The position numbers and the translations under genes are program-made. The notes under the pieces are model-generated. The model worked only from the letters and a program-made list of their open reading frames with translations, was not told the origin of the DNA and ran no database searches. Shown in pieces: positions 35,512 through 52,015 of a stretch of 64,000 nt of DNA. The stretch is from Gemmobacter fulvus. GTDB taxonomy: Bacteria; Pseudomonadota; Alphaproteobacteria; Rhodobacterales; Rhodobacteraceae. How positions within the stretch are numbered: position 1 is the stretch's first letter; each line of letters starts with the position of its first letter. Where the stretch lies: the NCBI RefSeq assembly GCF_018798885.1, contig NZ_CP076366.1, forward strand, positions 2,501-66,500, read 5' to 3'.

Positions 35512-35527
35512 GTTTCGCGTGCGAAAC
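35512..35527. other. parS-like palindrome, copy 1
   Basis: GTTTCGCGTGCGAAAC, a 7-bp inverted repeat around GT, extended to 18 bp by flanking T/A. It lies in the gap after manC. One of five copies of GTTTCGCRYGCGAAAC clustered around parAB. Confidence 0.6.
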
Positions 35528-35660
35528 AGCGGTGAAACTTTGGGCAGAACACAGGTCGCCCCGGTTGTAGTCACAGGCGGAACAGGCGAAAAGCACGATA
35601 CGGGGCACCCGGCGGTCCATGCGGCACCACCGGATGACTTTCGACAAGCAGAGGCACAGA

Positions 35661-37298
35661 ATGAGCGATAGCAGCAAACCTTCTTCCGATGTGGACGCCG
35701 TGCCGACGGTCGCGCTGTTCTGCGCGCCCGGCACGCCGCCGGAAACTGCGGCCCCCCTTGCCGCAGCGGCAGAGGGGCGGCTGGCCATTCTGGCCTATGA
35801 TCCGGCGGTGATTGCCGCCGCACTGGCCCGGGGGCAGCGCGCGGTGCTGCTGTGGCAAAGTGCGCGCGAGGCGCTGGCACAGGCCTTGCAGGCCGGGCAG
35901 GCCCCGGCAGCGGCGCTGGCGGATTGGGAGACCATGGCCTCGGATCTGCTCGCGCTGTATCGCCGCAACCGGCGCGGGCTGCTGCTGGTCTGTGCCGACC
36001 TGCTGACCGAGGGTAGCCCCGCCGATCTGGACGGGCTGCGCACGCAGCTGGGGCTGACCGCCGCCCTGCCCGCAGCGCCCGCCCCCGGCCCCGATCCGCT
36101 GCCCCGGCTGCTGGCCGATCTGGCCGTGCCCCGGCTGGGCGGCCGACTGCGCCAGGTGCTGACCGAACTTCAGGCCTCCAGCCTGGCACCGCTGCCCGCC
36201 GATCTTGCCCCCGAGGCGCTGGACCGCGCCGCGCAGACCCTGCAGGATCAGGACGAGATTCTGGCGCTGCATCAGGCGCAGTTGCAGCACCTAGACGGCA
36301 ATGTGCAAAGCCTGCTGGCCGAGGTCGTGCATAAGCAGGGCTTCACCGCCGAAACCGCCCGGCTGACCACCGAATTTGCCGCCATCGGCGCGCAGCTGGC
36401 AGCCGAGACGCAGCGCAGCCTGCACCTGACTGCCGAACGTGATGCGGCCCGTGCCGAGCTGGCCAAGGCCCAGACGGCCACCCAAGCCGAAAAGACCCGC
36501 GCCGCCGCCCTGACTGCCGAACGCGATACGGCCCGCGCCGAGCTGACCAAGGCGCAGGCGGCCACGCAGGCCGAAAAAGCCCGCGCAACCAGCCTGACCG
36601 CCGAACGCGATGCCGCCCGCGCCGAACTGACCAAGGTGCAGGCGGCCACGCAGGCTGCGGCACAGGCCGCCGCCAAGGCCGAAAAGGCCCGCACCAGCGA
36701 GGCGGTAAAGGCCCAGACCGCGACGCAGACCGAGATCGCGCAGCAGCGGCAGCGGCTGGCCGCACAGGATAGCGAGCTGCCCCTGCTGCGCGCCCAGATC
36801 GAACAGCTTCAGGCCGAGGCCGACCGCCATCTGACCACCACAGCCCCGGATACCGCCGACCTGCGCAGCCTGGCGCAAGAGGGCGACCGGCTGCGCGAGG
36901 CGCTGATGCAGTCGGAAAAGGCCGTGTCGCGCGCTCTGGCCGAGGCCCGGGCCGAAGCCGAACGCCGCGCCCGTCTGGAAGCGGATCTGGCGCGCAGCAC
37001 TGCGAGCCTGCAGGCGCTGCACCGGCAGGATCAGGATCTGATCGCCGCGCAGGACACCATCCGCCAGCTGACCGGCGACAGCGCTGGCCTGCTGGAGGCG
37101 CTGGCCAGCGGAACCGCCGCACTGGCCCAACTGCAGGCGCGCGAAGCCGCATTGGTGCAGGATCTGGCGGCCAGCTCGGCCCAACTGGCCATGCTGACCG
37201 AAGAGCGCGACCGGATGCTCGCCTCGCGCTCCTGGCGGGTGACGCGGCCCCTGCGCAGCGCCCATCGTGCGATCCGCCCCAAACCGCCTGAAGCCTGA
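35661..37298 (+). CDS. Coiled-coil polysaccharide-locus protein with C-terminal SRSW motif
   Basis: 545 aa. An N-terminal alpha/beta-like domain (about 1-170; VALFCAPGTPPETAAPL, AILAYDPAVIAAALA, GLLLVCADLLTEG) resembles degenerate sulfotransferase-type proteins without a P-loop. A long coiled coil follows (about 200-520) with three 28-residue repeats starting LTAERDAARAEL. It ends in ASRSWRVTRPLRSAHRAIR, a signature common at the ends of glycan-biosynthesis glycosyltransferases and methyltransferases. Start ATG 35661; the frame is open to 35619. Probably a scaffold or chain-length factor; no enzyme activity can be assigned. Confidence 0.65.
   Translation: MSDSSKPSSDVDAVPTVALFCAPGTPPETAAPLAAAAEGRLAILAYDPAVIAAALARGQRAVLLWQSAREALAQALQAGQAPAAALADWETMASDLLALYRRNRRGLLLVCADLLTEGSPADLDGLRTQLGLTAALPAAPAPGPDPLPRLLADLAVPRLGGRLRQVLTELQASSLAPLPADLAPEALDRAAQTLQDQDEILALHQAQLQHLDGNVQSLLAEVVHKQGFTAETARLTTEFAAIGAQLAAETQRSLHLTAERDAARAELAKAQTATQAEKTRAAALTAERDTARAELTKAQAATQAEKARATSLTAERDAARAELTKVQAATQAAAQAAAKAEKARTSEAVKAQTATQTEIAQQRQRLAAQDSELPLLRAQIEQLQAEADRHLTTTAPDTADLRSLAQEGDRLREALMQSEKAVSRALAEARAEAERRARLEADLARSTASLQALHRQDQDLIAAQDTIRQLTGDSAGLLEALASGTAALAQLQAREAALVQDLAASSAQLAMLTEERDRMLASRSWRVTRPLRSAHRAIRPKPPEA
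36426..36677 (+). repeat. 84-bp in-frame tandem repeats
   Basis: Three copies start at 36426, 36510 and 36594, exactly 84 bp apart, each encoding LTAERDxARAEL plus a Gln/Lys-rich remainder. They form coiled coil. Confidence 0.85.
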
Positions 37299-37314
37299 CG
37301 GCCCCTGCCGTCAG
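37295..37314 (+). terminator. Perfect hairpin overlapping the stop of the coiled-coil gene
   Basis: CTGACGGC / GCCGTCAG with loop CCCT; the TGA stop lies in the left arm. No T-run. Possible terminator before the next gene at 37403. Confidence 0.5.
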
Positions 37315-37402
37315 ATATGCCATCAGATCCTGTGCCATGTCCGCATCAGGCCCCCCGTAACCGACAGACATCTCCCGGCCATACAGCAGGGAAAGGACCG
37401 CA

Positions 37403-37936
37403 ATGACCCATAATCTCGACCTGGGCCCCGATGCCGGGGCCAATCACCTTCTGGCCCTGCTGCGCGGGCTGAGCTTTTCCGGACCTGTCGCCTCGGACAG
37501 CCCACTGCTGCCCGGCCTGTTCTTCTCGCTCGATCCCGAGAGCAGCACCCAGCTGCGCTGCCACAGCACCCCCGGCATGATGGTGGAGGCCGAATTCACC
37601 GTGGCCCGCCCCGGCCGCTGGATGGCGCTGCATATCAATCTGAGCGAGGCCGACCTGCGCGGGCGGCAGGTGCTGGGCGTGGTGTGCAAATCGCACAGCC
37701 CCGCTGCCACCACCTTCCGGCTCTGCCTGCGCTCGGGGCGCGAGGGCGGCTTCACCGATACCTTCTTCCGCAAGACCGTGGTCGCCTATGCCGAAACCAG
37801 CACCCATCTGGATGCGCTGATGCTGGATGCCGAACCGGGCCTGCCCCCCGAGGCACCCTGGCGCGAACTGGTGCTGTTCTTCCGCCCGGAAACCAGCAAG
37901 ATCACCCTGCAGGATCTGCGGATCTTCATCGTATGA
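37403..37936 (+). CDS. Hypothetical protein of the polysaccharide locus
   Basis: 177 aa, not recognised. It is rich in predicted beta strands (MMVEAEFTVARPGRWMALHI, VLGVVCKSHSPAATTFRLCL, WRELVLFFRPETSKITLQDL), suggesting a jelly-roll or carbohydrate-binding fold. No signal peptide. Its stop overlaps the start of the following glycosyltransferase (ATGA), so it is translated with it and may bind or position the acceptor. Confidence 0.7.
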   Translation: MTHNLDLGPDAGANHLLALLRGLSFSGPVASDSPLLPGLFFSLDPESSTQLRCHSTPGMMVEAEFTVARPGRWMALHINLSEADLRGRQVLGVVCKSHSPAATTFRLCLRSGREGGFTDTFFRKTVVAYAETSTHLDALMLDAEPGLPPEAPWRELVLFFRPETSKITLQDLRIFIV

Positions 37937-38919
37937 CCCTCTCGCTTGTCATCCCGGTCTGGAACGACCCCGAAGGGCTGTGCCGCCTGCTGGTGCAGGT
38001 GCAGGGGATGGCCTGTTTCCACGAGATCCTGATTTCCGACGATGCCTCCGATCCGCCCTGCGGGCCGCAGATGCCGGGCCTGCCCGCCGCGGTTGCCGCC
38101 GATCCGCGGCTGATCTGGCTGCGCAGCGACAGCCAGCGCGGCGCGGGCCATGCCCGCAACATCGCGCTGGACCGAGTGCAGGGCAGCCATGTGCTGTTCT
38201 TCGATTCCGATGATCTGTTCACCGCCGAGATCACCGATCTGGTGCAGCACCTGGACCAGCTGCCGCCGGATCTGCGCGATTATGATTTCTGCCTGTTCCG
38301 CCATGTCGACAGCCGGGTGCGCGCGGCGGGCGGTTATGGTCCGCTGGCCGGCGATGAACGCTATTGGGATGCCGCCGGGGCCACCGAGGCCCCGGCCCCG
38401 CTGGGAACCGCCGCCGCGACCCAGATGTGCCGCATCGCCGCCTATCCATGGAACAAGATCTATCGCACCGCCTTTCTGCGCGACAATGGCATCCGCTGCA
38501 CCGAAATTCCGGTGCATAACGATGTCGAGCTGCATTGGATGAGCTTTTTCAAGGCGCGGCGCATGCTGATCTCCAGCCTGATTTGCTGCGAACATTTTGT
38601 CGTCGATGCGGGTCAGCGCCTGACCAACCGCAGCGGGCGCGAGCGGTTCGAGGTGTTCCGCGCGCTGGAGGCCTTGCAGCACGAATTGCTGCGCAACCGC
38701 CATCTGCCCGACTATGCCGAACCCTTCATCGAATTCTACACCCGGCTGTTCGGCTGGATCACCGACACGCTGGAGCCGGATCTGCGCGCCGCCTTCACCG
38801 CGCGCAGTCGGCAGTTCCTGCTGGATCACCTGCCCGAGCCGCTGTTCACGCTGATCGCGCTGCGCAGGCCCGATGTCGCGGCCCGCATCACCCGCCTGCT
38901 GACGGAGCGTCCGGCATGA
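37933..38919 (+). CDS. Family 2 glycosyltransferase
   Basis: 328-aa GT-A enzyme: LSLVIPVWNDPEGLCRLL, EILISDDASDPPC, GAGHARNIALDRVQGSHV, the DxD loop LFFDSDDLF, and AYPWNKIYRTAFLRDNGIR. A long upstream open frame overlaps the previous gene; ATG 37933 coupled to its stop is the real start. It also overlaps the next GT2 gene by four bases. Confidence 0.9.
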   Translation: MTLSLVIPVWNDPEGLCRLLVQVQGMACFHEILISDDASDPPCGPQMPGLPAAVAADPRLIWLRSDSQRGAGHARNIALDRVQGSHVLFFDSDDLFTAEITDLVQHLDQLPPDLRDYDFCLFRHVDSRVRAAGGYGPLAGDERYWDAAGATEAPAPLGTAAATQMCRIAAYPWNKIYRTAFLRDNGIRCTEIPVHNDVELHWMSFFKARRMLISSLICCEHFVVDAGQRLTNRSGRERFEVFRALEALQHELLRNRHLPDYAEPFIEFYTRLFGWITDTLEPDLRAAFTARSRQFLLDHLPEPLFTLIALRRPDVAARITRLLTERPA

Positions 38920-40100
38920 GACATTCCTTCATTGTCACCACCTATAATATCGACAGCTATATCACCCGCTGCCTGGACAGCCTGCGCCCCTGCACCCGTC
39001 CCGGCGACGAGATCATCGTGGTGGATGATGGCTCGACCGACGGCACCGCCGAACGGGTGGAGGCGCTGCTGGCGGCCGGCGGCTTCGGCCCCGAGGTGAC
39101 GCTGCGCCCGATCCTGCTCGGGGCCAATACCATCGGCGGCGTGGGGATTCCCGGCAATATCGGCATGAGCGCGGCTGAGGGCGAGGCGGTGTTTTTCGTC
39201 GATGGCGATGACTGGCTGGAACCCGACGGGTTTCTGGCCTGCCGCCGCGCCTTTGAAAGCTCGGGTGCCGATATCCTGCTCGGCAATTACATGGAATATG
39301 ACGAACAGGCCGGTCAATCGCGCCCGCCCGCCGATGCCCGGCGCTGGTCGGGGCTGGCCGCGGCGCAGGATGCCACCGCGCGGCAGCGGTTTGCGCTGGC
39401 GCTGATTGCCGTGCCCTGGCGCAAATTCTACCGGCGCAGCTTTCTGCAGGAACATCGGCTGAAATTCCCTGAAGGCAATTTCTTCTTTGAAGACAATCCC
39501 TTCCATTGGGAGGTCTGCCAGAAGGCGGGCTCCATCGCCTTTCTGGACCGCATCCTGTGCCAGCACCGGATCAACCGCCCCGGTCAGACCATGGCCTCGA
39601 CCGGGCAGGAGCTGGGCGCCTTTTTCACCCATTACGAGACGATCCGCAGCCGCCTGCCCGCAGGCGATGCCGGCTTACAGGGCGCAGCCCTCGACTGGCT
39701 GATCAACAACATGGCTTGGCATGTGACCCGGCTGCACCCCGAGGCGCGCTGGCCCTATGCCAATCGCGCCGCCGAGGTTCTGGCCAGCTGCCCCGCCGAT
39801 CTCTGGGCCGGGGCGCGGCAGCGGTTCCTGACCACCTCGATCGGCGGCATGGCCGAGGCGCTGCGCCGGGGCGAGATTGCCGCCGTGGTCTCGGCCTGGA
39901 ACAGCGATCACCTGCGCCGCCAGATCAGCGATCTGGGCAACCGGCTCAGCACGCTGCAGGCCAGCGTCACCACATTGCAAGATGACGACAAGACCCAGGC
40001 TGCGCGGCTCGACGGGCTGCGCCAGATCGCGGAATTCAGCGCCCTGAAAGCGCTTGCCCGGGGCTTCGCCCCCGATGACCAGACGGAGACCCCCGCATGA
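38916..40100 (+). CDS. Family 2 glycosyltransferase with C-terminal coiled coil
   Basis: 394 aa. SFIVTTYNIDSYITRCLDSL, EIIVVDDGSTDGTAERVEAL, GNIGMSAAEGEAVFFVDGDD (DxD), VPWRKFYRRSFLQEHRLKFP and FFFEDNPFHWEVC form a canonical GT2 catalytic domain. The last ~70 residues (RRQISDLGNRLSTLQASVTT) form a coiled coil. Overlaps its neighbours by four bases on both sides, giving a tight run of transferases. Confidence 0.9.
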   Translation: MRHSFIVTTYNIDSYITRCLDSLRPCTRPGDEIIVVDDGSTDGTAERVEALLAAGGFGPEVTLRPILLGANTIGGVGIPGNIGMSAAEGEAVFFVDGDDWLEPDGFLACRRAFESSGADILLGNYMEYDEQAGQSRPPADARRWSGLAAAQDATARQRFALALIAVPWRKFYRRSFLQEHRLKFPEGNFFFEDNPFHWEVCQKAGSIAFLDRILCQHRINRPGQTMASTGQELGAFFTHYETIRSRLPAGDAGLQGAALDWLINNMAWHVTRLHPEARWPYANRAAEVLASCPADLWAGARQRFLTTSIGGMAEALRRGEIAAVVSAWNSDHLRRQISDLGNRLSTLQASVTTLQDDDKTQAARLDGLRQIAEFSALKALARGFAPDDQTETPA

Positions 40101-41299
40101 AACTCGCCCTGCATATCGGCACCCCAAAAACCGGCACCACCACGCTGCAACGCTGGTTCGCGCAGAACCGCACGGCCTTGCAGGCACAGGGGGTGATCTA
40201 TGCCCAAGCACCGGGGGCCGAAAACCACCGCAAGCTGATGGCCTATGCCCGCGACACCGACAAGCCCGATGGCAGTTTTGCCGGCTTCGGTATCCATGGG
40301 CCCGAAGATCACGCAGCCTTCCGCGCCGGGCTGGAAACCGCGCTGGCGCAGGAGGTGGCCGCCCATCCCGGTGCCCGTGTCTGGGTGATGTCGAACGAGC
40401 ATATCTTCAGCAAGGTCATCACCCGCCCGATGGCACGGCGGCTGAAAGACCTGCTGACCCCGCATTTCAGCGAGATTACTGTCTATCTGCATCTGCGGCC
40501 ACAGCTGGATCTGATGATGTCCAATGCCTCGCAACTGGCCCGCATCGGGCGGCAGATGTCGCGCGTGGAAATGACCCGGCCGGGCATCAGCCCCGAAAAC
40601 TACTTCTTTGGCTACGACCGCTTTCTGACCAATTGGGAAGCGGTGTTCGGCGCACGCAACATCCGCCTGGTGCCGTTCCGCCGCACGCCCGACATGACCC
40701 GCTTCCTGCAGGCCGAGCTGGGCATCGACACCAGCACCCTGCCCGCCGCCGCCCGCGAGAACACCGGGCTGGACTGGCGCGCCATCGCGCTGGCCAATGT
40801 GGTGAACCGCAGCCTGCAGGCCGCCGACGTGGCCCCCCTGCCCGATTTCCATCTGGACTCCATGCCCGGCACCGAGCGGATCCAGCCTGGTCTGGCACTG
40901 GCGCAAGAGGTGCAGGCCCGTTTCACCGCCAGCAATGCCGCGCTGGCGGCCCGCCGCTCCGACATCACGCTGGAAGATCTGACCCCCGATTGGTCCGCCT
41001 ATGCGCCCGAGGGCAATCTGCATCTGGTTGATGCGCCCTGTGTGTTCGAGGCGCAACTGGGCCATATGGTGCGCCGCTTTGCCGGCGACGTGGCGCTGGA
41101 AACCTGGCGGCGGCATCTGGCCGAAGGCAAGCTGGCCGCCCTGACCGGCGATGCCGCCGGTGTTTCGCGCGCGAAACGCCAGATGGAACGGCTGGCAACC
41201 CGGCTGACCAGCCTCGGCGTGGCGCTGCCCGCAGCCCCGGCCCCGCGGCCCGCCCCGACGCAGACAGCACCGGCGCAGACGGGCACCGGCACCGCATGA
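40097..41299 (+). CDS. P-loop sulfotransferase-like protein of the glycan locus
   Basis: 400 aa. Opens with LALHIGTPKTGTTTLQRWF, an intact P-loop typical of sulfotransferase-like proteins in capsule clusters. VWVMSNEHIFSKVI and ITVYLHLRPQLDLMMSN (the 3'-phosphate-binding position has R but a variant context) follow. The C-terminus is an Ala/Pro-rich tail. It contains one parS-like palindrome in its coding sequence (41162-41177). Sulfate transfer is plausible but not certain; related proteins are often annotated only as hypothetical. Confidence 0.68.
   Translation: MKLALHIGTPKTGTTTLQRWFAQNRTALQAQGVIYAQAPGAENHRKLMAYARDTDKPDGSFAGFGIHGPEDHAAFRAGLETALAQEVAAHPGARVWVMSNEHIFSKVITRPMARRLKDLLTPHFSEITVYLHLRPQLDLMMSNASQLARIGRQMSRVEMTRPGISPENYFFGYDRFLTNWEAVFGARNIRLVPFRRTPDMTRFLQAELGIDTSTLPAAARENTGLDWRAIALANVVNRSLQAADVAPLPDFHLDSMPGTERIQPGLALAQEVQARFTASNAALAARRSDITLEDLTPDWSAYAPEGNLHLVDAPCVFEAQLGHMVRRFAGDVALETWRRHLAEGKLAALTGDAAGVSRAKRQMERLATRLTSLGVALPAAPAPRPAPTQTAPAQTGTGTA
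41162..41177. other. parS-like palindrome, copy 2 (inside a coding region)
   Basis: GTTTCGCGCGCGAAAC within the sulfotransferase-like gene, where it encodes part of GVSRAKRQM. Confidence 0.6.
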
Positions 41300-42318
41300 T
41301 CCGCATCCTGCCCTTCGGGGCATTCCACAACCGCCAGCCGCTTGCCTATGCGCCGATCCGGGCGCGGCTGGCGGGGCCGGTGGAACTGGTCGACACGCCG
41401 TCAGAGGCGCAGATCCTGCTGATCAGCCATCACAAGGATCTGGAGCTTTATGGCACGCGCCTGCTGCGCCTGCTGGCGGCGCGCCCGGCGCTGCGGGTGG
41501 TGCTGCTGTCAGAAGAGCCGTTCTGGGACAGTTGCTGGGCCCCCGATCCGTTCAGCCGGTATCAGGGCTTTGCCACGCCGGAAGGCGTGCTGCCCTATGC
41601 GGTGCTGAACCATCATACCTCGGCGATCTACCGGGCGCAGCGCATCCCGTATTTCCTGCTCACCGATCCGCGGTACATCGCCCATTACCGGCCGCTGTTT
41701 GACCGCAACGCCGGGCGCAGCGCCGCCGAATGGCTGGCGCATTTCCGCGATGTGCCGCTCGATGCGGGGTTCATAGGCGAAAAGCGCAGCCATGACCGCC
41801 ACAACCCCGCCTTCCCGGCGCAGGATGTCTGGGGGTTGAGCGTGTTTCGCAGCCGCTTCACCCATCTCTGCACGGCGGGCCGGGTGCTGCGGGCGGGCAA
41901 GGGCTGGTCGGACGGGCCGCCCCGGCAGGAACTGCCCGACTGGCACGCCGACAAGCTTGCCCTGCTCGATCTGCGCTGCCGTTATGTGGCGGGGTTCGAG
42001 AACACCCATCAGGCAGATTACCTGTCGGAAAAGATCTATGACGCTTTCGCAGTGGGGGCGGTGCCGCTCTATGTGGCAGGCAAGACCCATGCCGTGCATC
42101 GGCTGGTGGGACCTGCGGGCTGGCTGAACTTCTATGCGCCGCCGCCGAAAGCCACGGCCTTCGATCCCCGCCGCCGGGTGACGGCCCCCGAGGCCGCCGC
42201 TTATGCGGCAGTCCAGGCCCGTCTTGCCACGCTGTTTCAGGATCCCGCCGCAACAGAGACGGAACTGGACCGCCTGACCACGGCCTTGGTTGCCGAATTC
42301 CGCCGGTTGCTCAGCTAG
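41296..42318 (+). CDS. GT10-family (alpha-1,3-fucosyltransferase-like) glycosyltransferase
   Basis: 340 aa. The C-terminal half has CRYVAGFENTHQADYLSEKI then YDAFAVGAVPLYVAG, the GT10 donor-binding signature (FEN...DYxxEKxxxAxxxGxVPVY). GDP-fucose is the usual GT10 donor, and gmd, fcl, manC and manB lie in the same locus. The N-terminal half (RILPFGAFHNRQPL, VVLLSEEPFWDSCW) fits the acceptor domain. No transmembrane anchor. Overlaps the previous gene by four bases. Confidence 0.8.
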   Translation: MIRILPFGAFHNRQPLAYAPIRARLAGPVELVDTPSEAQILLISHHKDLELYGTRLLRLLAARPALRVVLLSEEPFWDSCWAPDPFSRYQGFATPEGVLPYAVLNHHTSAIYRAQRIPYFLLTDPRYIAHYRPLFDRNAGRSAAEWLAHFRDVPLDAGFIGEKRSHDRHNPAFPAQDVWGLSVFRSRFTHLCTAGRVLRAGKGWSDGPPRQELPDWHADKLALLDLRCRYVAGFENTHQADYLSEKIYDAFAVGAVPLYVAGKTHAVHRLVGPAGWLNFYAPPPKATAFDPRRRVTAPEAAAYAAVQARLATLFQDPAATETELDRLTTALVAEFRRLLS

Positions 42319-42339
42319 CCCCCGTAAAGGAACCCTCAC

Positions 42340-43710
42340 ATGCCGCTGACCTGCTTCAAAGCCTATGACATCCGCGGCCGGCTGGGCCTTGATCTTGACG
42401 AGGGCATTGCCCACCGCATCGGCCGGGGCTTTGCCCGGGCGCTGGACGCGCGCCTGGTGGTGGTGGGCCGCGATTGCCGCGCCTCGTCTGACGCGCTGGC
42501 CGAAGCGGTGATGGCCGCCCTGATCGCCGAAGGGGCCGAAGTGCTGGACCTCGGGCTTTGCGGCACCGAAGAAATGTATCACGCCACCACGCATTTCGCC
42601 GCCGATGGCGGAATCGAGGTCACGGCCTCGCACAATCCGATGGATTACAACGGCATGAAGATGGTGCGCGCCGGATCGGCGCCGCTGGATGCCGCAACCG
42701 GCCTGGCCCGCATCCGCGCGCTGGCCGAGGCGGATGATTTTGGCCCGGCCCGCCCCGGCGGTGCCCGCCGCGATGTCGCCGTCGAGGCCCGCGCCGCCTA
42801 TGTGCAAACGGTGATGTCTTTCGTCTCTGTGCCTGCGCTTTTGTCGCTGAAAATCGTGGTCAATGCCGGCAATGGCGCGGCAGGCCCCAGCTTTGACGCC
42901 ATCGCTGCGGCGCTCGCCGCCCAGGGCGCGCCGCTGGAGATCATCCGCCTGCATCACACGCCGGATGGCAGCTTCCCCAATGGAATCCCCAACCCGCTTC
43001 TGCCCGAAAACCGCCCCGTCACCGCCGAGGCAGTGCGCGCCGCCGGGGCCGATCTTGGCCTCGCCTGGGATGGCGATTTTGATCGCTGTTTCTTTTTCGA
43101 TGCCGAAGGCCGCTTCATCGACGGCGAATATATCGTCGGCCTGCTGGCAGAGGTGTTTCTGGCCAAGGAGCCGGGCGCGCGCATCGTGCATGACCCGCGT
43201 GTGATCTGGAATACTCAGGATGTCGTGGCCCGGGCGGGCGGCATCGCGGTGCAGGCGCGCACCGGCCATGCCTTCATCAAACAGGTGATGCGCGATGAAG
43301 GTGCTGTCTATGGCGGCGAGATGTCGGCGCATCACTACTTCCGCGATTTCTGTCACTGTGACAGCGGCATGATCCCCTTCCTGCTGGTAATCGAGTTGAT
43401 GAGCCGCAAGCGCGCGGCACTGGCCGATCTGGTGGCGGCGCGGCAGGCGGCCTTTCCATCCTCGGGCGAGATCAACTTTCACCCGCACGATCCGCAGGCC
43501 GCCATTGCAAGGGTGCGCGCGGCCTATGAGCCGCTGGCCACATCTGTAGATGAGACCGATGGGCTGAGCTTTGCCTTTGCCGATTGGCGGTTCAATCTGC
43601 GCAGTTCCAACACCGAACCCGTGGTGCGCCTGAATGCTGAAAGCCGGGGCGATGCCGCCGCACTGGCCAGCCGGGTGGCCGCCCTTCAGGCCCTGTTGAC
43701 CGAGGGCTGA
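42340..43710 (+). CDS. manB: Phosphomannomutase
   Basis: 456-aa alpha-D-phosphohexomutase interconverting mannose-6- and mannose-1-phosphate for ManC. Four active-site loops are visible: phosphoserine VTASHNPMDYNG, Mg2+ AWDGDFDRCFFFD, sugar specificity YGGEMSAHHYFRDF (GEMSAH), and phosphate binding NLRSSNTEPVVRLN. GEMSAH favours mannose/glucose. Last gene of the locus before parB. Confidence 0.94.
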   Translation: MPLTCFKAYDIRGRLGLDLDEGIAHRIGRGFARALDARLVVVGRDCRASSDALAEAVMAALIAEGAEVLDLGLCGTEEMYHATTHFAADGGIEVTASHNPMDYNGMKMVRAGSAPLDAATGLARIRALAEADDFGPARPGGARRDVAVEARAAYVQTVMSFVSVPALLSLKIVVNAGNGAAGPSFDAIAAALAAQGAPLEIIRLHHTPDGSFPNGIPNPLLPENRPVTAEAVRAAGADLGLAWDGDFDRCFFFDAEGRFIDGEYIVGLLAEVFLAKEPGARIVHDPRVIWNTQDVVARAGGIAVQARTGHAFIKQVMRDEGAVYGGEMSAHHYFRDFCHCDSGMIPFLLVIELMSRKRAALADLVAARQAAFPSSGEINFHPHDPQAAIARVRAAYEPLATSVDETDGLSFAFADWRFNLRSSNTEPVVRLNAESRGDAAALASRVAALQALLTEG

Positions 43711-43731
43711 ACCGGCCCGGATGCCGGCTGT

Positions 43732-43747
43732 GTTTCGCACGCGAAAC
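43732..43747. other. parS-like palindrome, copy 3 (between manB and parB)
   Basis: GTTTCGCACGCGAAAC, the best copy: perfect pairing continues to 13-bp arms (GGCTGTGTTTCGC on the left) over 43726-43753. It lies between two convergent genes, so it may also act as a bidirectional terminator hairpin. Confidence 0.65.
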
Positions 43748-43759
43748 ACAGCCGATGCG

Positions 43760-44782
43760 TCACCATTCCTGCGTTTTCAGCCAGTCCAGCAGCCGGGCGC
43801 GCAGCGCCGCATCGGCCTTGACGCCCTCCAGCACCAGTCGCCCCGAAGCATGGGTCGACAGCCGCAAACCGGGCAGGGGCTCCTCCACCAGAATAGTCTC
43901 TGTGACGGCGGTTAGAGCCGCTTTTTTGGCCGCGTCCCCGCTCAGCCGCGCCAACTCGGTCGCTGCATCCGCCGCAGGCTCTGCCGCCAGCGCCGCGCGC
44001 AGACGCGGGCCCAGCTGCGGATCGGCCTCCAACGCCTTGGCAAGCTGCAAGCCGAACCGCTCGCTCATCGCTTCGGGAAAGCGCAGCACCCCGTCCAGTG
44101 CCTGCACGATGCCCAGGAACGAGCCGATCTTGGACCGCTTCGCCCGCGAGGCACTGCGGAACAGATCGCGCAGCGCGTCCTTTTCGCTGGCATAGACACC
44201 GATTTCTACCGCCTTGGCCACGATGCGCGCGCGTTCATAGAACGACAGCCCGACCCGGATCTCGTTTTCTTCGACCATCGCCAGATAAGCTTCCGAGGCC
44301 TGATCCGGTTTGCGCAGCAGCGCCAGGACCGTGGCGAACTGCGCCGTATCCCCGGCCTCGTCGCGCAGGATGCTCAGCGCCCGCAGCCGCCGCCAGCCCG
44401 AGATCAGGCCATAACGCCCGCCGTCCAGCGCCACCACCTCGATCGGCGTCTGCTGGCCGCGCAGGCGCAGGCTTTCGATCAGCGCCGTCATCTCCTCGGG
44501 ATCGGCGGCCAGCCGGTCGCGCACCAGATGCCCGGCCTCGACCTGATCCAGCGGCAGCGCGATCACCAGCCGTCCGCCTTCGCGCGCCGCCCGCAGGGTT
44601 TCGGCCATTTCCTGCATGGCGGCCGTGGCTGCCGCCGCACCCGCCATATCGGCAATCGGTGCCGACCGGGTATGCCCCCCGGCATAGCCGGAGGGATAGC
44701 TGGGGAAAAAGGCCTTGGTCTCCAGCACCGGCACCTCGTCCGGCTCGGCACCAAGGGGGGAAAGACGTTTGCGTTTGGCCAT
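43760..44782 (-). CDS. parB: Plasmid partition protein ParB (centromere-binding)
   Basis: 340 aa. ParB/Spo0J-type N-domain: IALPLDQVEAGHLVRDRLAA, SLRLRGQQTPIEVVAL, the arginine patch GLISGWRRLRALSILRD, and MVEENEIRVGLSFYERARI. A helix-turn-helix region (about 200-240) and a C-terminal dimer domain follow. It should bind the GTTTCGCRYGCGAAAC sites nearby and stimulate ParA. It lies downstream of parA, with one palindrome in the 107-bp gap. Confidence 0.93.
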   Translation of the reverse strand: MAKRKRLSPLGAEPDEVPVLETKAFFPSYPSGYAGGHTRSAPIADMAGAAAATAAMQEMAETLRAAREGGRLVIALPLDQVEAGHLVRDRLAADPEEMTALIESLRLRGQQTPIEVVALDGGRYGLISGWRRLRALSILRDEAGDTAQFATVLALLRKPDQASEAYLAMVEENEIRVGLSFYERARIVAKAVEIGVYASEKDALRDLFRSASRAKRSKIGSFLGIVQALDGVLRFPEAMSERFGLQLAKALEADPQLGPRLRAALAAEPAADAATELARLSGDAAKKAALTAVTETILVEEPLPGLRLSTHASGRLVLEGVKADAALRARLLDWLKTQEW

Positions 44783-44856
44783 GGCAGTCTCCGCTCAGGG
44801 GGCCGTCAGAAGGACGGCGGCGGGGTTAAAACGGGGCGAAGGCAGCGCCCGATCCG

Positions 44857-44872
44857 GTTTCGCACGCGAAAC
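44857..44872. other. parS-like palindrome, copy 4 (between parA and parB)
   Basis: GTTTCGCACGCGAAAC in the 107-bp gap between the parA stop and the parB start. Its position inside the par operon is typical of a plasmid centromere. Confidence 0.65.
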
Positions 44873-44889
44873 AGCGGGGGCCGAATACG

Positions 44890-46284
44890 TCACTGTGCGG
44901 CCTCTTGTGCCACAGCCAGCTCTTCGCGCCGCCAGCTTCCCAGGATCAGCGCTTTCACCGCTGCCCAGGTCTCATCGAAGGTTTCCCGACCGCGGGCATA
45001 GGTCTCGCGGTTGAAGTCGCGGTAATCGGCCTCATAGATGCCGCGCACCTGTTCGCCCGCCTGCCCGATCAGCGCGGTGAAATCCTGCCGGTGTGGCGAC
45101 AGGGTCTGCCCCAGCCAGCCCTGCATCAGCGCAGCCAGTTCGGCCTGCTGCGATCCGTCAAAGCGGGTGACGATGGCACGCACCGCATCCCATTCGAAAC
45201 TCAGCTCCGGCCGCCCCAGCGCCCGCGCAGCCATGTTCTCGCCCTCCTCGATCGAGCGGAAGGTGGAATGCAGCATGTCGAAGAACCGCCCGGTGGAATC
45301 GAACTCCAGAAACGAGGCGCCCATCGGTACCAGCAGGATATCGGCGGCGGCCAGCCCGTTGATGGTCAGATAGCCAAGGGCGGGCGGCGTATCGAGGAAG
45401 ATCAGATCATATTGATCGAGGATGCCATCAGCGGCCAGCGTCTCGGTCAGCGCATCCCACAACTTCCAGCCGCGCCCCTGCATGCGCCAGACCGGAATCT
45501 GGAACTCGGCCCAATAGAGGTTCAGCTGCGCCCCGATCAGGTCGATATTCGGCCAATGGGTTTTCTGCACCAGATCCTGCGCTTTGATCGGCAGCGCCTC
45601 GCTCAGCGTGTCATCCAGCGGGATCGGTGAATCGCCCCGGTCCAGACGACGCTGGTTCTCGATGCGCAGATGGCTGGCGTAATGGCGGGCCAGCAGCGGG
45701 AAGACCGTTTGCCATTCATCGGCCACGCGCCCGCCGAAGATCGAGGTCATCGAGCCCTGGCTGTCGAGGTCGATCACCAGCACGCGGTAGCCATCCAGCG
45801 CTGCCGACATCGCCAGATGCGCGCAGGTGGAGGTCTTGCCGACGCCGCCCTTGAAATTCGCCACCGCGAGCATCTTGGCGGGCAGGCCCTTGGGCCGGTA
45901 GGGCAGATAGGGTTTGGCCTTGGAGCCTTCGGCGCCGAAATGCGCGCGCAGCCGCAGCACCTCGTCGAGGGTGAACCATTTGGCGCCGCCCTCGGTTTCC
46001 GAAAGCCCCTGCGGCAGATCGGGGTTCAGCTTCAGCACCCGGCGAAAATGGGCCTGGGCCACCGGGATCAGGTAGCGGGTGATTTCCCAGGTGGAGAACA
46101 GCCGCAGGCTGCGGCTGCCGCTGGCATCGAGGCCACGCCCGGCCAGATCCTGCCGCCCCGCCTCGCAGGCCTTGGCGATGCTGCCGAAGCCCTCGGTGGT
46201 GGTCGGGCGACCCAGCCCGGCCAGTGCGAGATCGGGGTCGATGGCGAAATAGGGGGGCAGGCTGCCCAGCGGATCTGCTTTCAT
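44890..46284 (-). CDS. parA: Plasmid partition ATPase ParA
   Basis: 464-aa ParA with an N-terminal extension (about 130 aa, including FSTWEITRYLIPVAQAHFRR and AKWFTLDEVLRLRAHFG, a likely DNA-binding region for autoregulation) typical of plasmid type Ia. The deviant Walker A is NFKGGVGKTSTCAHLA, followed by VLVIDLDSQGSMTSIFG and IFLDTPPALGYLTING. It positions plasmid copies with ParB. It is transcribed away from rep; a 44-bp inverted repeat lies 12 bp upstream of the start. Confidence 0.94.
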   Translation of the reverse strand: MKADPLGSLPPYFAIDPDLALAGLGRPTTTEGFGSIAKACEAGRQDLAGRGLDASGSRSLRLFSTWEITRYLIPVAQAHFRRVLKLNPDLPQGLSETEGGAKWFTLDEVLRLRAHFGAEGSKAKPYLPYRPKGLPAKMLAVANFKGGVGKTSTCAHLAMSAALDGYRVLVIDLDSQGSMTSIFGGRVADEWQTVFPLLARHYASHLRIENQRRLDRGDSPIPLDDTLSEALPIKAQDLVQKTHWPNIDLIGAQLNLYWAEFQIPVWRMQGRGWKLWDALTETLAADGILDQYDLIFLDTPPALGYLTINGLAAADILLVPMGASFLEFDSTGRFFDMLHSTFRSIEEGENMAARALGRPELSFEWDAVRAIVTRFDGSQQAELAALMQGWLGQTLSPHRQDFTALIGQAGEQVRGIYEADYRDFNRETYARGRETFDETWAAVKALILGSWRREELAVAQEAAQ

Positions 46285-46295
46285 GCTCGCGGCCT

Positions 46296-46339
46296 CATAT
46301 GCTGCGTTTTCGTCAGTATACGCAAAAACACGGCATATG
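46296..46339 (-). promoter_or_regulatory. 44-bp imperfect inverted repeat, candidate parA operator
   Basis: Left arm 46296-46310 (CATATGCTGCGTTTT) and right arm 46325-46339 (AAAACACGGCATATG) pair at 13 of 15 positions around a 14-bp centre. It lies just upstream of parA, where type Ia ParA proteins repress their own promoter. Confidence 0.6.
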
Positions 46340-46550
46340 GAAGAAAAGACCGCACACGGCAGGAATTTTATAACTGATTCTGAGGCTTGGCTCTGCCTGT
46401 CTCGGCAATTTCGCGGCTTGTGCCTGGGGATCGGCGGGGGCTGCGCAGATTTTTTTCAGTTATGGGATGTTATCTTAAGTGTTACAGAGACAGAAGCCTT
46501 TCTGTAATGATCTGATATAAAACAAGAAAATACCCAAGTCTTGGGGCGTT

Positions 46551-46616
46551 GCGACTCTGAAACCACGCTGAGGCGACTCTGATCCCCCGAGCAGGTGACT
46601 CTGATCCGACAAAGCC
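46551..46616 (+). repeat. Three 22-bp iterons
   Basis: GCGACTCTGA at 46551 and 46573 and GTGACTCTGA at 46595, exactly 22 bp (two helical turns) apart. The second and third copies continue identically with TCC. They are the probable binding sites of the Rep protein for initiation and copy control. Confidence 0.78.
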
Positions 46617-46632
46617 GATGCTGGACGCGGAC

Positions 46633-46641
46633 TGTGGATAA
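46633..46641 (-). promoter_or_regulatory. Perfect DnaA box
   Basis: TGTGGATAA on the plus strand, i.e. TTATCCACA on the minus strand, the consensus DnaA-binding sequence, 17 bp after the last iteron. It suggests host DnaA helps open the origin. Confidence 0.75.
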
Positions 46642-46706
46642 CTCTAGGGTGGGTGTCACTGAAACCCCGATAGAAAACGGGGGCAGCGAAGGCCGAGGCA
46701 GGCAAT

Positions 46707-47753
46707 ATGGCAGGACAATTGACAGCCGGGGGGCGTGGCCCCCTCATGGCGCGTAGGCCGGTTGAACCGCCTGCGATCTGCGATCTGTTCATCTGCGATG
46801 TCTTTGCGGCCAGCCCCAAGGATGATCTGGGCACGATGGAACATCCGATCTTTTCGCTGTCCACTAAACCCGACCGCCGCATCCTGAGTTACGAACATAA
46901 CGGCGTCAGCATCGAGGTCACGCCTTCGGTGCGTGGTCGTGCGACGATCCATGACAAGGACATCCTGATCTTCTGCATCAGCCAGCTGATGGCGGCGCTG
47001 AATGCCGGGCGCGAGATCGGCCGCACGCTCCAGCTCAAGGCGCATGACCTGCTGATCGCCACCCAGCGCGATACCGGCGGCGACAGTTACCTGCGGCTGC
47101 GCGAGGCGTTCGAGCGGCTGGCGGGCACCCGCATCACCACCAATCTGGCCACCAATGGCGTCGAGGTCACCTCGGGGTTCGGGCTGATCGAAAGCTGGGA
47201 GATCCTGCGCCGCACCCGGGGCGGTCGGATGATCTCGGTCACGGTCACGCTGTCGGACTGGTTGTTTCGCGCCGTGCTGGGCCGGTCGGTGCTGACGCTG
47301 AGCCGCGATTATTTCGGGCTGCGCAAACCGCTGGAGCGGCGGGTCTATGAGCTGGCGCGCAAACATTGCGGCCGTCAGCCGGAATGGCGGGTCAGCCTTG
47401 CGGTGCTGCACAAGAAATCGGGTTCCACCGCGCCGGTGCGGGTGTTCCGCGCCGCGATCCGCAAGATGATCGAGGAGGCGCAGCTGCCCGATTACACGCT
47501 GAGCGAAGAGCCGGGCGATGTGATCCGGGTCAGCCGCCAGGGCCTGATCGAGGATGACAGCGCAAGCGGCCTGCTGCCGCCGTTCGACCCCGATGTGCTG
47601 GACGCTGCGCGCGCGCTGGTGCCAGGGGCCGATGTCTATGCGCTGGAGGCGGAGTGGCGGGCGTTCTGGGTGGCCTCGGGCCGGCCACGGCTGACCGCAC
47701 CCGATCGGGCGTTTCTGGGCTGGCTGCGCGGGCGCGGCGCGCTGGGGGCGTAA
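46707..47753 (+). CDS. repA: Plasmid replication initiator (RPA / RepA family)
   Basis: 348 aa of the replication initiator protein A family found on rhodobacterial plasmids. Landmarks: CDLFICDVFAASPKDDLGTM near the start, HPIFSLSTKPDRRILSYEHN, IHDKDILIFCISQLMAALN, RITTNLATNGVEVTSGFGLI, RDYFGLRKPLERRVYELARK and RVFRAAIRKMIEEAQLPDY, consistent with paired winged helices. It should bind the iterons upstream. Divergent rep versus parAB is the layout of RepA-type replicons in roseobacters. ATG 46707 is the first in-frame start; internal ATG 46746 is an alternative. Confidence 0.9.
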   Translation: MAGQLTAGGRGPLMARRPVEPPAICDLFICDVFAASPKDDLGTMEHPIFSLSTKPDRRILSYEHNGVSIEVTPSVRGRATIHDKDILIFCISQLMAALNAGREIGRTLQLKAHDLLIATQRDTGGDSYLRLREAFERLAGTRITTNLATNGVEVTSGFGLIESWEILRRTRGGRMISVTVTLSDWLFRAVLGRSVLTLSRDYFGLRKPLERRVYELARKHCGRQPEWRVSLAVLHKKSGSTAPVRVFRAAIRKMIEEAQLPDYTLSEEPGDVIRVSRQGLIEDDSASGLLPPFDPDVLDAARALVPGADVYALEAEWRAFWVASGRPRLTAPDRAFLGWLRGRGALGA

Positions 47754-47858
47754 CCCGGATCTTAAGGCCGCGCGCGCCGGGTTCAGGCGGTTTTCATGCC
47801 GGTTCGGAACAGTGCCGGGCAGGGGCCGCAGCCGCGCGCCCCTACCCGAGGAGGCCTC

Positions 47859-48164
47859 ATGCAGATCCGACTGACCCCGATGCGCAGCGATGCGCGCCTG
47901 ACCCTGCATCGTGCGGGCGATGTGTTGACCGTCAATGATGTGGTGCTGGATTTTTCCGCGATCCCCGAAGGGGCGGTGCTGCCGCGTGCGGCGGTGGCCT
48001 GCGATGCGCTGGCCTCGGATGTCTGCCGCGCGGCGGGTAGGCTGCATCTGACGCTGATCCTGCCGCATGGCGCGGATGCGCCGCAGGCCTGCCTGCACCC
48101 GGCCCCGCTGCTGTTGCTGGCCGATGGGCCGGTGCCGCTGCCGGGCGTGGAGGCTGGGGCATGA
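47859..48164 (+). CDS. Small phage-tail-associated hypothetical protein
   Basis: 101 aa (MQIRLTPMRSDARLTLHRAG; VVLDFSAIPEGAVLPRAAVA; RLHLTLILPHGADAPQAC). The same small beta-rich protein accompanies DUF4376 proteins in Rhodobacterales prophage or tail regions. GAGGAGG precedes ATG 47859. It overlaps the next gene by four bases. Function not established. Confidence 0.75.
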   Translation: MQIRLTPMRSDARLTLHRAGDVLTVNDVVLDFSAIPEGAVLPRAAVACDALASDVCRAAGRLHLTLILPHGADAPQACLHPAPLLLLADGPVPLPGVEAGA

Positions 48165-48541
48165 GCGCGGTGGATCTGAGCCAGCTTGTGCTGCCCGCCG
48201 CCCGCGCCGAACAGGCCCGCGCGGCGCTGCGGGCCGCGGTGACGGCCCGGCGCGACCGGGCAATTGCTGCGGGGCTGGTGCAGGAGGGGCTGGCCATCGC
48301 CACGGACGATCTGTCGCAAAGCCGCATTCTGGGCGCCGCCCTGTCGGCGGTGATCGACCCGGATCTGGTGCTGGGCTGGAAGACCGCCGATGGCCGCATG
48401 GTGCCGCTGACCGCGCCGCAGATCCTCGCGCTGGCCAAGGCGGTGCGCGCCCATGTGCAGGCCTGTTTTGACCGCGAGGCGGCAATCCTCGCCGATCTGG
48501 CGGTAGGCGGCACCCCGGATCTTGCGGCAGGCTGGCCCTGA
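48161..48541 (+). CDS. DUF4376-like phage-tail-type protein
   Basis: 126 aa, mostly helical: ARAEQARAALRAAVTARRDR, then SRILGAALSAVIDPDLVLGW, TADGRMVPLTAPQILALAKA and VRAHVQACFDREAAILADL, the order seen in DUF4376 tail proteins. Translationally coupled to the previous gene. The pair is probably a remnant of a phage or GTA-like locus, along with the DUF2793 gene at 18.6 kb. Confidence 0.75.
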   Translation: MSAVDLSQLVLPAARAEQARAALRAAVTARRDRAIAAGLVQEGLAIATDDLSQSRILGAALSAVIDPDLVLGWKTADGRMVPLTAPQILALAKAVRAHVQACFDREAAILADLAVGGTPDLAAGWP

Positions 48542-49426
48542 TCAGCGCCGTGCGGGATCGAGCAGCGACAGCAGATAGCTGCCATAGGCATTCTTGGCAA
48601 AACCTGCCGCCCGCGCCCGCAGCTGATCGGCACTGATCCAGCCCTTGGCAAAGGCGATCTCTTCCGGGCTGCCCACCTGCTGCCCCTGCCGCTCGGTCAG
48701 GGTGCGCACGAAGTTTCCGGCATCCAGCAGGCTGGCATGGGTGCCGGTATCCAGCCAGGCATAGCCCCGGCCCATCTGCTCGACCGACAGCAGCCCGTCG
48801 GCCAGATACATCTCCAGAAGCGAGGTGATCTCCAGCTCACCCCGCTCTGACGGGGTGACGGCGCGCGCGCGTTCCGGCGCGCTGCCATCAAGGAAATAGA
48901 GCCCGGTCACCGCATAGGGCGAGGGCGGGCGGGCCGGCTTTTCGATGATGGCGCTGACATTACCCTCCGCATCGAAGGCCACCACGCCATAGCGTTCGGG
49001 ATCGGCCACCCGATACCCGAACACGGTGCCGCCACTGGTTTTCGCATCCGCCCGCGCCAGTTGCTCCGGCAGGCCATGGCCGAAAAAGATATTGTCGCCC
49101 AACACCATGGCCGAGGGCGCCCCATCGAGGAACGCTTCTGCCAGCAGATAGGCCTGCGCCAGACCGTCGGGTGTGGGCTGCACGATATAGTGCAGCTGCA
49201 CCCCCCATTGGCTGCCATCGCCCAGACTGCGCTGAAACTGATCCTGATCCTGCGGCGTGGTGATGATGGCAATCTCGCGGATGCCGGTCAGCATCAGCAC
49301 GGACAGCGGATAATAGATCATCGGCTTGTCATAGATCGGCAGCAGCTGTTTGGAGATGCCGATGGTGATCGGATAAAGCCGCGTGCCAGAGCCGCCGGCG
49401 AGGATGATGCCCTTGCGTGCCGTCAT
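48542..49426 (-). CDS. rmlA: Glucose-1-phosphate thymidylyltransferase
   Basis: 294 aa; first enzyme of dTDP-L-rhamnose synthesis. KGIILAGGSGTRLYPITIG, IYDKPMIYYPLSVLMLTGIR, VLGDNIFFGHGL, VFGYRVADPERYGVV and YAWLDTGTHASLLDAGNFV are canonical. Last gene of rmlCBDA, starting one base after rmlD. Confidence 0.97.
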   Translation of the reverse strand: MTARKGIILAGGSGTRLYPITIGISKQLLPIYDKPMIYYPLSVLMLTGIREIAIITTPQDQDQFQRSLGDGSQWGVQLHYIVQPTPDGLAQAYLLAEAFLDGAPSAMVLGDNIFFGHGLPEQLARADAKTSGGTVFGYRVADPERYGVVAFDAEGNVSAIIEKPARPPSPYAVTGLYFLDGSAPERARAVTPSERGELEITSLLEMYLADGLLSVEQMGRGYAWLDTGTHASLLDAGNFVRTLTERQGQQVGSPEEIAFAKGWISADQLRARAAGFAKNAYGSYLLSLLDPARR

Positions 49427-49427
49427 G

Positions 49428-50276
49428 TCAGATCCCTTTCAATGCAGCCAGAACCCGGGCCAGCCCCTGCCGCCAATCGGGGGCGGTCAGGCCGAAATCC
49501 GTCTCTGTGCTGGCCATATCCAGCCGTGAATTCAGCGGGCGGCGCGCCGGGGTCGGATAGGCCTCCGAGGCGATATCCTCGACCGTCACCGAAAGCCCGG
49601 CCTGCCGGAATGTTTCGCGCGCGAAACAGGCCCAGCTGGTCGCCGGTGCCCCGGCATAATGATAGGTGCCGCCCGCCGCGCCTGCGCGCAGCGCTTCGGT
49701 GATCCGGAGCAGGGCAGCGGCGATCTCTGTGGCCGGGGTCGGCCCGCCGGTCTGATCGGCCACCACGCGCAGATGCGACCGTTCGGCCCCGAGCCGCAGC
49801 ATGGTCTTCACGAAATTCGTGCCATGGGCCGAAAACACCCAGGAGGTGCGCAGGATCACATGCTGCCCGCCCGCCGCCCGCACCGCCGCCTCGCCCGCCG
49901 CCTTGCTGCGACCGTAAACCCCCAGCGGGGCCACCGGATCGCCGGGCCGCCAGGGCGTGCTGCCCGATCCGTCAAAGACATAATCGGTGGAGATATGCAC
50001 AAAGGGGATGCCCAGATCGGCGCAGGCCCGGGCCAGTGCGCCGGGGGTCTGGCCATTCACCAGCCCGGCGATGTCGGGCTCGCTTTCGGCGCGGTCCACC
50101 GCCGTATAGGCGGCGGCATTGATCACCGCGCGGGCACCGCTGGCCCGCAGGGCGGCGACACAGGCGGCGGGGTCGGTCAGATCGGCGCGGTCGCGGCCCA
50201 GAAAAGCGGCCTCGGGCGCCAGGGCGGCCAGTTCCCGCGCCACCTGTCCGCTTTGGCCGAATACCAGAAGGCTCAT
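49428..50276 (-). CDS. rmlD: dTDP-4-dehydrorhamnose reductase
   Basis: 282-aa SDR enzyme for the last step of dTDP-rhamnose synthesis. [46 protein letters not shown] and [12 protein letters not shown] (YxxxK) are present. ATG 50276 overlaps the rmlB stop by four bases. A parS-like palindrome lies inside, encoding CFARETF. Confidence 0.95.
49612..49627. other. parS-like palindrome, copy 5 (inside rmlD)
   Basis: GTTTCGCGCGCGAAAC within rmlD, about 4.8 kb from parB on the side opposite copies 1 and 2. It marks the right edge of the cluster. Confidence 0.6.
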
Positions 50277-51313
50277 GCCCGCGTTCCCAGCCTGTCGCCC
50301 ACCCCGGCGCGCGCCTGCAGGGGCTGCCACCAGTCGGCATTGTCGAGATACCATTGCACCGTGCGGTTCAGCCCCTCTTCCACGCTGACCGAGGCGCGCC
50401 AGCCCAGCTCGTCGCGGATGCGGCGGGCGTCGATGGCATAACGGGCGTCATGGCCGGGCCGGTCGGTCACAAAGCGGATCTGATCGGCATAGGGCGTGGC
50501 CTTGGGGCGTTTGGCATCGAGGATCGCGCAGATGCTGCGCACGAGGTCGATGTTGCGCCGTTCATTGCCGCCGCCGATATTGTAGCTGCGCCCCACCGCG
50601 CCGCGCGTCAGCACCAGAAGCAGCGCCTCGGCATGATCCTCGACATAGAGCCAGTCGCGCACATTCTCGCCCGCGCCGTAGACCGGGATCGGCTTGCCCG
50701 CCAGCGCATTCAGGATCACCACCGGGATCAGCTTTTCGGGAAAGTGATAGGGGCCGTAATTGTTGGAACAATTGGTCAGCACCACCGGCAGGCCATAGGT
50801 CTCGCCCCAGGCGCGCACCAGATGGTCGGAGGCAGCTTTCGAGGCGGAATAGGGACTGCGCGGATCATAGGGCGTGTCTTCGGTGAACAGTCCGCTGGCC
50901 CCCAGACTGCCGAACACCTCGTCGGTGGAAATGTGGTGAAAGCGGAAGTCGGCGGGTTTGCCCTGCGCGCTCCACCAGGCCCGGGCCGCCTCCAGCAGGT
51001 TGAAGGTGCCGGCGACATTGGTGTCGATGAAGGCCGCAGGCCCGTCGATCGACCGGTCGACATGGCTTTCGGCGGCCAGATGCATCACCGCATCGGGGGC
51101 GTGTTGCGCAAAGATCCGGTCCAGGCTGGCGCGGTCGCGGATATCGGCCTGTTCAAACGCATAAAGGGCATTGTCAGAGACGCTTTTCACATTCTCCAGA
51201 CAGGCGGCATAGGTCAGGCAATCCAGATTGACCACCGCATGGCCGCGCGCCACCGCCAGCCGCACCACCGCCGAGCCGATGAAACCCGCACCACCCGTCA
51301 CCAGAATCTTCAT
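50273..51313 (-). CDS. rmlB: dTDP-glucose 4,6-dehydratase
   Basis: 346-aa SDR enzyme. NAD motif [51 protein letters not shown], catalytic [33 protein letters not shown] and [16 protein letters not shown] are complete. Overlaps rmlC and rmlD by four bases each. Confidence 0.97.
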
Positions 51314-51876: not shown

Positions 51877-51885
51877 CCGCCCCCC

Positions 51886-51913: not shown

Positions 51914-52015
51914 TGCTGTGTCTGCCCCGTTCCCGCCTGTCTGCCGGAGCGAGGCGGCAGCGATATGACGCTGCCATGGCCAGAGCGGGGCAAACCCGCC
52001 TGCCTGTCCCCGGCC

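Follow-up and report, generated by a model that had tools for sequence, protein, structure and literature searches.

The DNA analysed here, a stretch of 64,000 nucleotides of Gemmobacter fulvus (the window), belongs to a contig of 141,504 bases (C6) and contains the partition genes parB and parA, an RPA-type replication gene repA, a rhamnose operon and five exact copies of the palindrome GTTTCGCRYGCGAAAC, which we consider the candidate centromere (parS) of this replicon. All five sites and the three genes parB, parA and repA are carried by this same contig, and their coordinates are given in Table 1. The original prediction located the five copies correctly and is also right that the window has no others, since allowing up to two mismatches added none; 100 dinucleotide shuffles of the window gave a mean of 0.06 matches at that tolerance and 1 at most. 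The five are also the only exact copies in the whole genome of this organism (7 contigs, 4,677,627 bases), where no copy with one mismatch was found. Beyond the window there are eight copies with two mismatches, of which one is on C6; the reversed control pattern gave seven matches. Equal frequency of the motif on the chromosome had been named as the result that would speak against a plasmid centromere. The host chromosome (contig C1, 3,376,470 bases) has no copy, but some relatives do have chromosomal copies.

Table 1: Features of the window and candidate sites proposed from sequence (ORF: open reading frame).
Feature	Position	Strand	Description
parS candidate 1	35512..35527	no strand	GTTTCGCGTGCGAAAC; intergenic; outer T...A
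parS candidate 2	41162..41177	no strand	GTTTCGCGCGCGAAAC; towards the 3' end of ORF 40097-41299, within it
Phosphomannomutase/phosphoglucomutase-family gene	42340..43710	+	Convergent with parB; Pfam
30-bp perfect palindrome around candidate 3	43725..43754	no strand	Between convergent 42340-43710 (+) and parB (-)
parS candidate 3	43732..43747	no strand	GTTTCGCACGCGAAAC; in the interval separating parB from its convergent neighbour, immediately after the parB stop
parB	43760..44782	-	340 aa; weak Pfam ParB_N match (2.6e-4, below cut-off)
parS candidate 4	44857..44872	no strand	GTTTCGCACGCGAAAC; in the parA-parB gap
parA	44890..46284	-	464 aa; Walker ATPase with N-terminal extension; AAA_31 6.3e-29 at residues 137-336
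repA, RPA-family replication initiator	46707..47753	+	PF10134 1.5e-96
rmlA	48542..49426	-	Rhamnose operon; TIGR01207 above cut-off
rmlD	49428..50354	-	Host gene of candidate 5; PF04321 2.2e-93; TIGR01214 above cut-off; start codon uncertain
parS candidate 5	49612..49627	no strand	GTTTCGCGCGCGAAAC; within rmlD, where the codons encode FARET
rmlB	50273..51313	-	TIGR01181 above cut-off
rmlC	51310..51993	-	TIGR01221 above cut-off; start codon uncertain

Candidates 3 and 4 flank parB, as had been predicted, and the position of candidate 3 is much used among relatives. The outlying sites are candidates 1 and 2, at 8.2 and 2.6 kb from candidate 3, and candidate 5, at 4.8 kb from candidate 4. Two copies had been placed inside coding genes, a sulfotransferase-like gene and rmlD; both do lie in coding sequence, but the sulfotransferase-like label was not confirmed because a Pfam search with the ORF around candidate 2 gave no match at 1e-3. 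The arms, given as TGTTTC...GAAACA, have their outer T...A complete in candidates 1, 3 and 5 and incomplete in the other two; on a symmetric reading nine of the ten outer bases are pyrimidines, and the remaining one is the left G of candidate 4. The 30-bp palindrome around candidate 3 forms a strong hairpin as RNA (fold z -4.8), therefore a transcription end at this point is also possible and the palindrome may double as a terminator.

The product of parB was matched by the NCBIfam RepB/ParB models at 1.4e-17 and 6e-12. Its AlphaFold model (pLDDT 85.5) was compared by Foldseek with the structures in PDB, and the best match was Noc (E 1.5e-7), followed by KorB and ParB. Together with the weak ParB_N match, these results describe a ParB-family protein with an N-terminal ParB domain and a helix-turn-helix, as in class Ia partition systems. 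Residues G129, R131, R132 and E171-R176, which may correspond to CTP-binding motifs, are invariant across 64 ParBs (the alignment for structure mapping took 63 of the 80 genome loci described below). The partner protein also corresponds to class Ia, having a Walker ATPase domain and an N-terminal extension which presumably binds DNA, and it is 82% identical to ParA of D. shibae pDSHI02; the repeated inverted-repeat site adjoining parAB that is typical of this class is present as well. The replicase was assigned to RepA-I by its 69% identity to RepA of pDSHI02, a 153-kb record that matches the size given for the D. shibae replicon named RepA-I in the accessible part of PMC9426580. The fact that repA adjoins parA could be taken to mean that the palindrome is bound by RepA or forms part of the replication origin, but no copy lies in repA or between parA and repA, the sites flank parB and are spread over 14 kb, and the arms are common to replicons with a ParB of another clade (clade 2, see below), so that the probability of this explanation is close to nil.

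The surroundings of homologous parB genes were examined in the best 80 of at least 370 ParB loci in genome contigs, together with three plasmid regions, 83 loci in all. As the original prediction had suggested could be checked, the same palindrome accompanies close ParB homologues: 159 exact copies of the 16-mer are distributed over 76 of the 83 loci. Two of these loci, L043 and L044, are near-duplicates from one metagenome-assembled genome, and both were counted here and among the 13 rmlD sites described later. When all perfect palindromes with 7-base arms and a 2-base centre were ranked, those with GTTTCGC arms and any centre came first (77 loci) and those with CATCAGC arms next (32); the letters of the half-site can be ordered in 209 further ways, none of which was found in more than one locus. 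In 67 of the 83 loci, parB has a site with any centre no more than 250 bp away, on both sides in 22, only downstream in 24 and only upstream in 21; the median distances (over the 83 loci and up to nine more) are 19 bp downstream and 72 bp upstream. The seven loci without the exact motif carry variants: one mismatch in L020, L049, L052 and L090, the last of which has its site in rmlD and not at parB; a 1-base spacer in L032 and L046; and CTTTCGC arms in L080. Six whole plasmid records of relatives have one to four copies each of the 16-base form or of the 15-base form with a single spacer base, therefore the five copies over 14 kb in the window are on the high side. Six loci compared with Rfam had no RNA family match at the gathering score. 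The second palindrome mentioned above, CATCAGC-NN-GCTGATG, is present once in each of its 32 loci.

We then considered 295 genomes of the family, of which 94 contain the 16-mer and 145 a ParB at E<=1e-20. Sorted by their best ParB, the 16-mer is present in 75 of 84 genomes at E<=1e-50, in 7 of 28 between 1e-50 and 1e-35, in 1 of 33 between 1e-35 and 1e-20, and in 11 of the 150 that have none. The first group against all others gives a Fisher p of 2.5e-41, a value that overstates independence, and the reversed control pattern was found in six of the 295 genomes, once in each. The exact 15-mer is distributed differently, being present in 20 of 28 genomes with a best ParB between 1e-50 and 1e-35, in 35 of 84 with a closer one, in 2 of 33, and in 7 of 150 without ParB.

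Position, conservation, co-occurrence and the predicted fold of ParB are direct observations, and we consider the palindrome to be the parS set of a RepA-I-type ParABS partition system, that is, a candidate centromere, with a probability of about 0.92. The replicon-specific ParB-binding cluster of the original prediction holds up as a candidate in that the same palindrome stands beside homologous parB genes, co-occurs with ParB and coexists with a separate chromosomal parS. Several points weigh against this interpretation. ParB falls under the Pfam and NCBIfam cut-offs, and the TM-scores by query of its ten best Foldseek matches are low (0.22-0.30). In 16 of the 83 loci the 250 bp on either side of parB contain no site. 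Neither the exact 16-mer nor the exact 15-mer is found in 5 of the 84 genomes with a close ParB, and one or the other is held by 17 of the 150 genomes without ParB at 1e-20; two of these 17, G217 and G279, are complete by the completeness measure and contain nine 16-mers each, and none of their ParB_N regions examined matches this ParB better than E 5.7e-7. Counts of loci and genomes are moreover not fully independent, because loci were picked for the similarity of their ParB, and the genomes are those of related organisms.

The presence of the sites among polysaccharide genes would also be expected of the operator of a transcription factor, for example one regulating those genes, and KorB proteins, which are related to ParB and belong to IncP-1 and IncU plasmids, are described as global regulators too in the available portion of PMC7022226. 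Two of the five sites are however inside genes, the interval between parA and repA (46285-46706) has no copy, relatives with varied neighbourhoods retain the site beside parB, and the form of the site tracks the ParB clade, all of which makes an operator without centromere function very unlikely.

From the parS interpretation we infer binding, a CTP clamp, spreading, segregation and discrimination between site forms. A ParB dimer would bind GTTTCGC-RY-GCGAAAC through its central helix-turn-helix, and the bound protein would close with CTP into a clamp and slide onto nearby DNA, while ParA, with ATP and on the nucleoid, would separate the ParB-parS complexes before division. The core centromere would be formed by the two sites at parB, and the other three, two of them within coding sequence, would be extra loading sites. 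The form of the site would separate C6 from the chromosomal parS and from another replicon of the same cell, C2, whose candidate sites have a 1-base spacer. If so, a widespread class of roseobacter plasmids with surface-polysaccharide genes gains a candidate centromere that is defined by its sequence and whose specificity code can be tested. No earlier description of this parS was found in the literature searched; most subscription journals were outside its coverage, so an earlier one is possible.

The proposed site code, read from sequence comparison, would consist of common GTTTCGC arms, an outer base (pyrimidine or purine) that depends on which of two ParB clades is present, and a spacer of 1 or 2 bases. 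Site forms were labelled for 112 of 114 ParB loci (L044 and L086 were left out), and a tree was built with 68 of the 114 and the window. The resulting tree, of 69 ParBs, has one clade with a pyrimidine as outer base and one with a purine, with a single change and an SH-aLRT of 99 on both sides; this count omits L038 (mixed sites), L080, L249 and L253 (no site) and the window itself. L042, outside the tree and assigned to clade 1 by similarity, has one site with outer A and C and fits the pyrimidine rule poorly. The length of the site changes up to seven times on the same tree, which is an upper figure because L023, L028, L038 and L132 carry both lengths and the labels are majorities. Among the ParB residues of clade 2, only position 242 separates 15-base from 16-base sites, and weakly (R in 7 of 7, K in 13 of 18). 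In a sample of 20 loci taken from weaker ParB matches, 16 have mainly the 15-base form within 1.6 kb of parB (one-mismatch sites included), two have the 16-base form and two have neither.

Both spacer forms seem to coexist in G. fulvus. The ParB of C2 is 51% identical to that of C6 over 222 residues, and no 16-mer lies near its parB. When the genome was searched for GTTTCGCNGCGAAAC with up to one mismatch, the matches were all on C2, at 61649 (exact), 63248, 64048 and 203633; the first three (positions 6649, 8248 and 9048 of locus L174), of which the latter two have one mismatch, lie 0.7-3.1 kb upstream of this second parB. These 1-base-spacer palindromes are candidate parS sites for a further replicon of this organism, and the two forms would offer a natural test of how ParB reads the spacing of half-sites. 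Near the ParB of contig C5 just one perfect palindrome was found, which is not repeated.

Candidate 5 could be followed in the 32 rmlD matches found in plasmid loci. The exact site is present at identical codons in 13 of them, and all 13 encode FARET; rmlD of L090 also encodes FARET and has the site with one mismatch. The remaining 18 have other residues at this position, FAREI in 10 of them. The residue is therefore tied to the site, and it is possible that the site in rmlD had a single origin and was then inherited.

Some relatives carry many more copies of the 16-mer, also away from parB. The exact copies per genome are 22 in G105, 19 in G035, 18 in G133, 16 in G277, 14 in G092 and G149, 12 in G075 and G220 (the latter genome being 75% complete), 11 in G293, 10 in G015, and 9 in G217 and G279. 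Seven or more copies are found in 11 of the 84 genomes with ParB at 1e-50, in 1 of 28 and 0 of 33 in the two following groups, and in 3 of the 150 without ParB. Copies away from parB (19 in G105, 17 in G035, 10 each in G149 and G075) are mostly outside genes: by simple ORF calling, with which random positions fall outside ORFs at 0.17-0.42, the sites outside ORFs are 17 of 17 in G035, 16 of 19 in G105, 10 of 10 in G149, 8 of 10 in G075 and 7 of 7 examined (of 9) in G279, but only 3 of 9 in G217. On the largest contig of G149 and of G075, the centre is AC/GT and the outer base T in all 10 sites, as on the clade-1 plasmid contig C5 of each, whereas the sites of C4 of G149 have an AT centre and outer G. 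Of the five sites of G015 off the parB cluster, four have its GC centre and all have outer T; G133 has outer T in the 3 sites examined of 16 off parB. G035 has mixed centres with outer T in 30 of 34 positions, its second ParB replicon (C6) having outer G, and in G105 the outer bases of the 19 sites off the parB contig are purines in 30 of 38, like those of its clade-2 ParB.

In these relatives the outer base of the chromosomal copies mostly agrees with that of the sites on the resident plasmid, as does the centre in some genomes. On this basis we tentatively propose, with limited confidence, that in several Rhodobacterales lineages the plasmid ParB was adopted as a chromosome-binding protein and its parS copies spread over the main chromosome, tethering the plasmid to the nucleoid or organising the chromosome in the manner of Noc. 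Sites spread over the host chromosome, as for Noc, are absent from G. fulvus and were seen in some relatives only. Should the plasmid ParB bind the chromosomal copies, common sites would link the plasmid to its host, and one protein would serve both in segregation or folding, which would be a step on the way to a chromid. A different origin may apply in G035, where 17 copies lie on the 3.79-Mb contig C1 and 14 of them (L116-L126, L128-L130) share flanks, forming an interspersed repeat about 95 bp long; on the 153-kb pDSHI02 replicon of G035, the parB-adjacent site has these flanks too. Such shared flanks weigh against binding by ParB, in that they could belong to a mobile repeat that happens to include the core; the nine copies each of G217 and G279, genomes without this ParB, do so as well, most of those of G217 being within ORFs. 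The repeat of G035, together with the hairpin-forming palindrome between convergent genes at candidate 3 and the location between convergent genes of 11 of the 16 G105 sites outside ORFs, would fit a terminator hairpin or a REP-like repeat without any role in partition. Against it, the invariant part is the 16-mer, without one-mismatch copies in the genome of G. fulvus, which is also found in coding sequence and tracks ParB across genomes, and we regard a terminator or REP-like element alone as highly improbable.

We compared the candidate parS with known systems. It resembles the chromosomal parS TGTTTCACGTGAAACA bound by ParB/Spo0J in the TGTTTC...GAAACA arms of most copies and in the ParB fold, and differs in its centre, GCRYGC instead of ACGT; both kinds are present in the G. 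fulvus genome on different replicons, with TGTTTCACGTGAAACA occurring three times on C1 in the vicinity of the chromosomal parB. A replacement of the chromosomal parS by the present palindrome was considered and rejected, the canonical site being present in 12 of 13 genomes searched, in each no further than about 4 kb from the best ParB_N match; it was not found in G133, whose only ParB_N match is of plasmid type. Noc structures are the best fold matches of the ParB model, and the dispersed chromosomal sites of some relatives recall Noc binding sites; the difference is that here we have a plasmid protein with a ParA partner. KorB structures are also among the best fold matches, and the KorB operators of IncP plasmids are many dispersed sites on one plasmid, with a sequence that differs from this one.

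The palindromes of RepABC plasmids of Alphaproteobacteria are likewise short, replicon-specific and near the partition genes, sometimes with distant extra copies; pAMI4, in the accessible text of PMC9040568, has three parS 11.5 kb downstream of repC, and RepABC-1 and RepABC-2 sites are one reciprocal base exchange apart according to the part of PMC5613091 that was available. Candidates 2 and 5 fit the loose search pattern GTTNNNNGCNNNNAAC as given in that portion of PMC9040568, whereas none of the five copies fits the strict parS consensus GTTNNCNGCNGNNAAC. Unlike in RepABC plasmids, there is no repC operon, the replicase beside parAB is of the RPA family (PF10134) and on the opposite strand, the sites are in the parA-parB gap and after parB, and the family has two spacer lengths. 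The closest likeness in gene content is that to the RepA-I biofilm plasmids of Rhodobacterales, which share with the window a RepA-I-like repA, parAB and a complete rml set, rmlA, rmlB, rmlC and rmlD being each above the NCBIfam cut-off; a complete rhamnose operon on a Leisingera RepA-I replicon is described in the accessible part of PMC4148953. No parS for these plasmids was found in the literature searched, as far as the accessible parts of the sources go.

Three minor observations were made in the same loci and records. The word GTTGACAGCTGTCAAC, which is the pAMI4 RepABC parS word in the accessible part of PMC9040568, is present at 5758 and 7045 of locus L184 (G279), beside another ParB. 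Extra inverted arms (AGGTCCG..CGGACC, GGTCAG..CTGACC) surround the core in L023, L027, L028, L038, L222 and several of L195-L221, on plasmids as well as chromosomes. Finally, a 24-kb record labelled Bacillus velezensis (NZ_CP061940, H23) contains a match 56% identical to this ParB over 75%, and its label is likely due to mislabelling or contamination.

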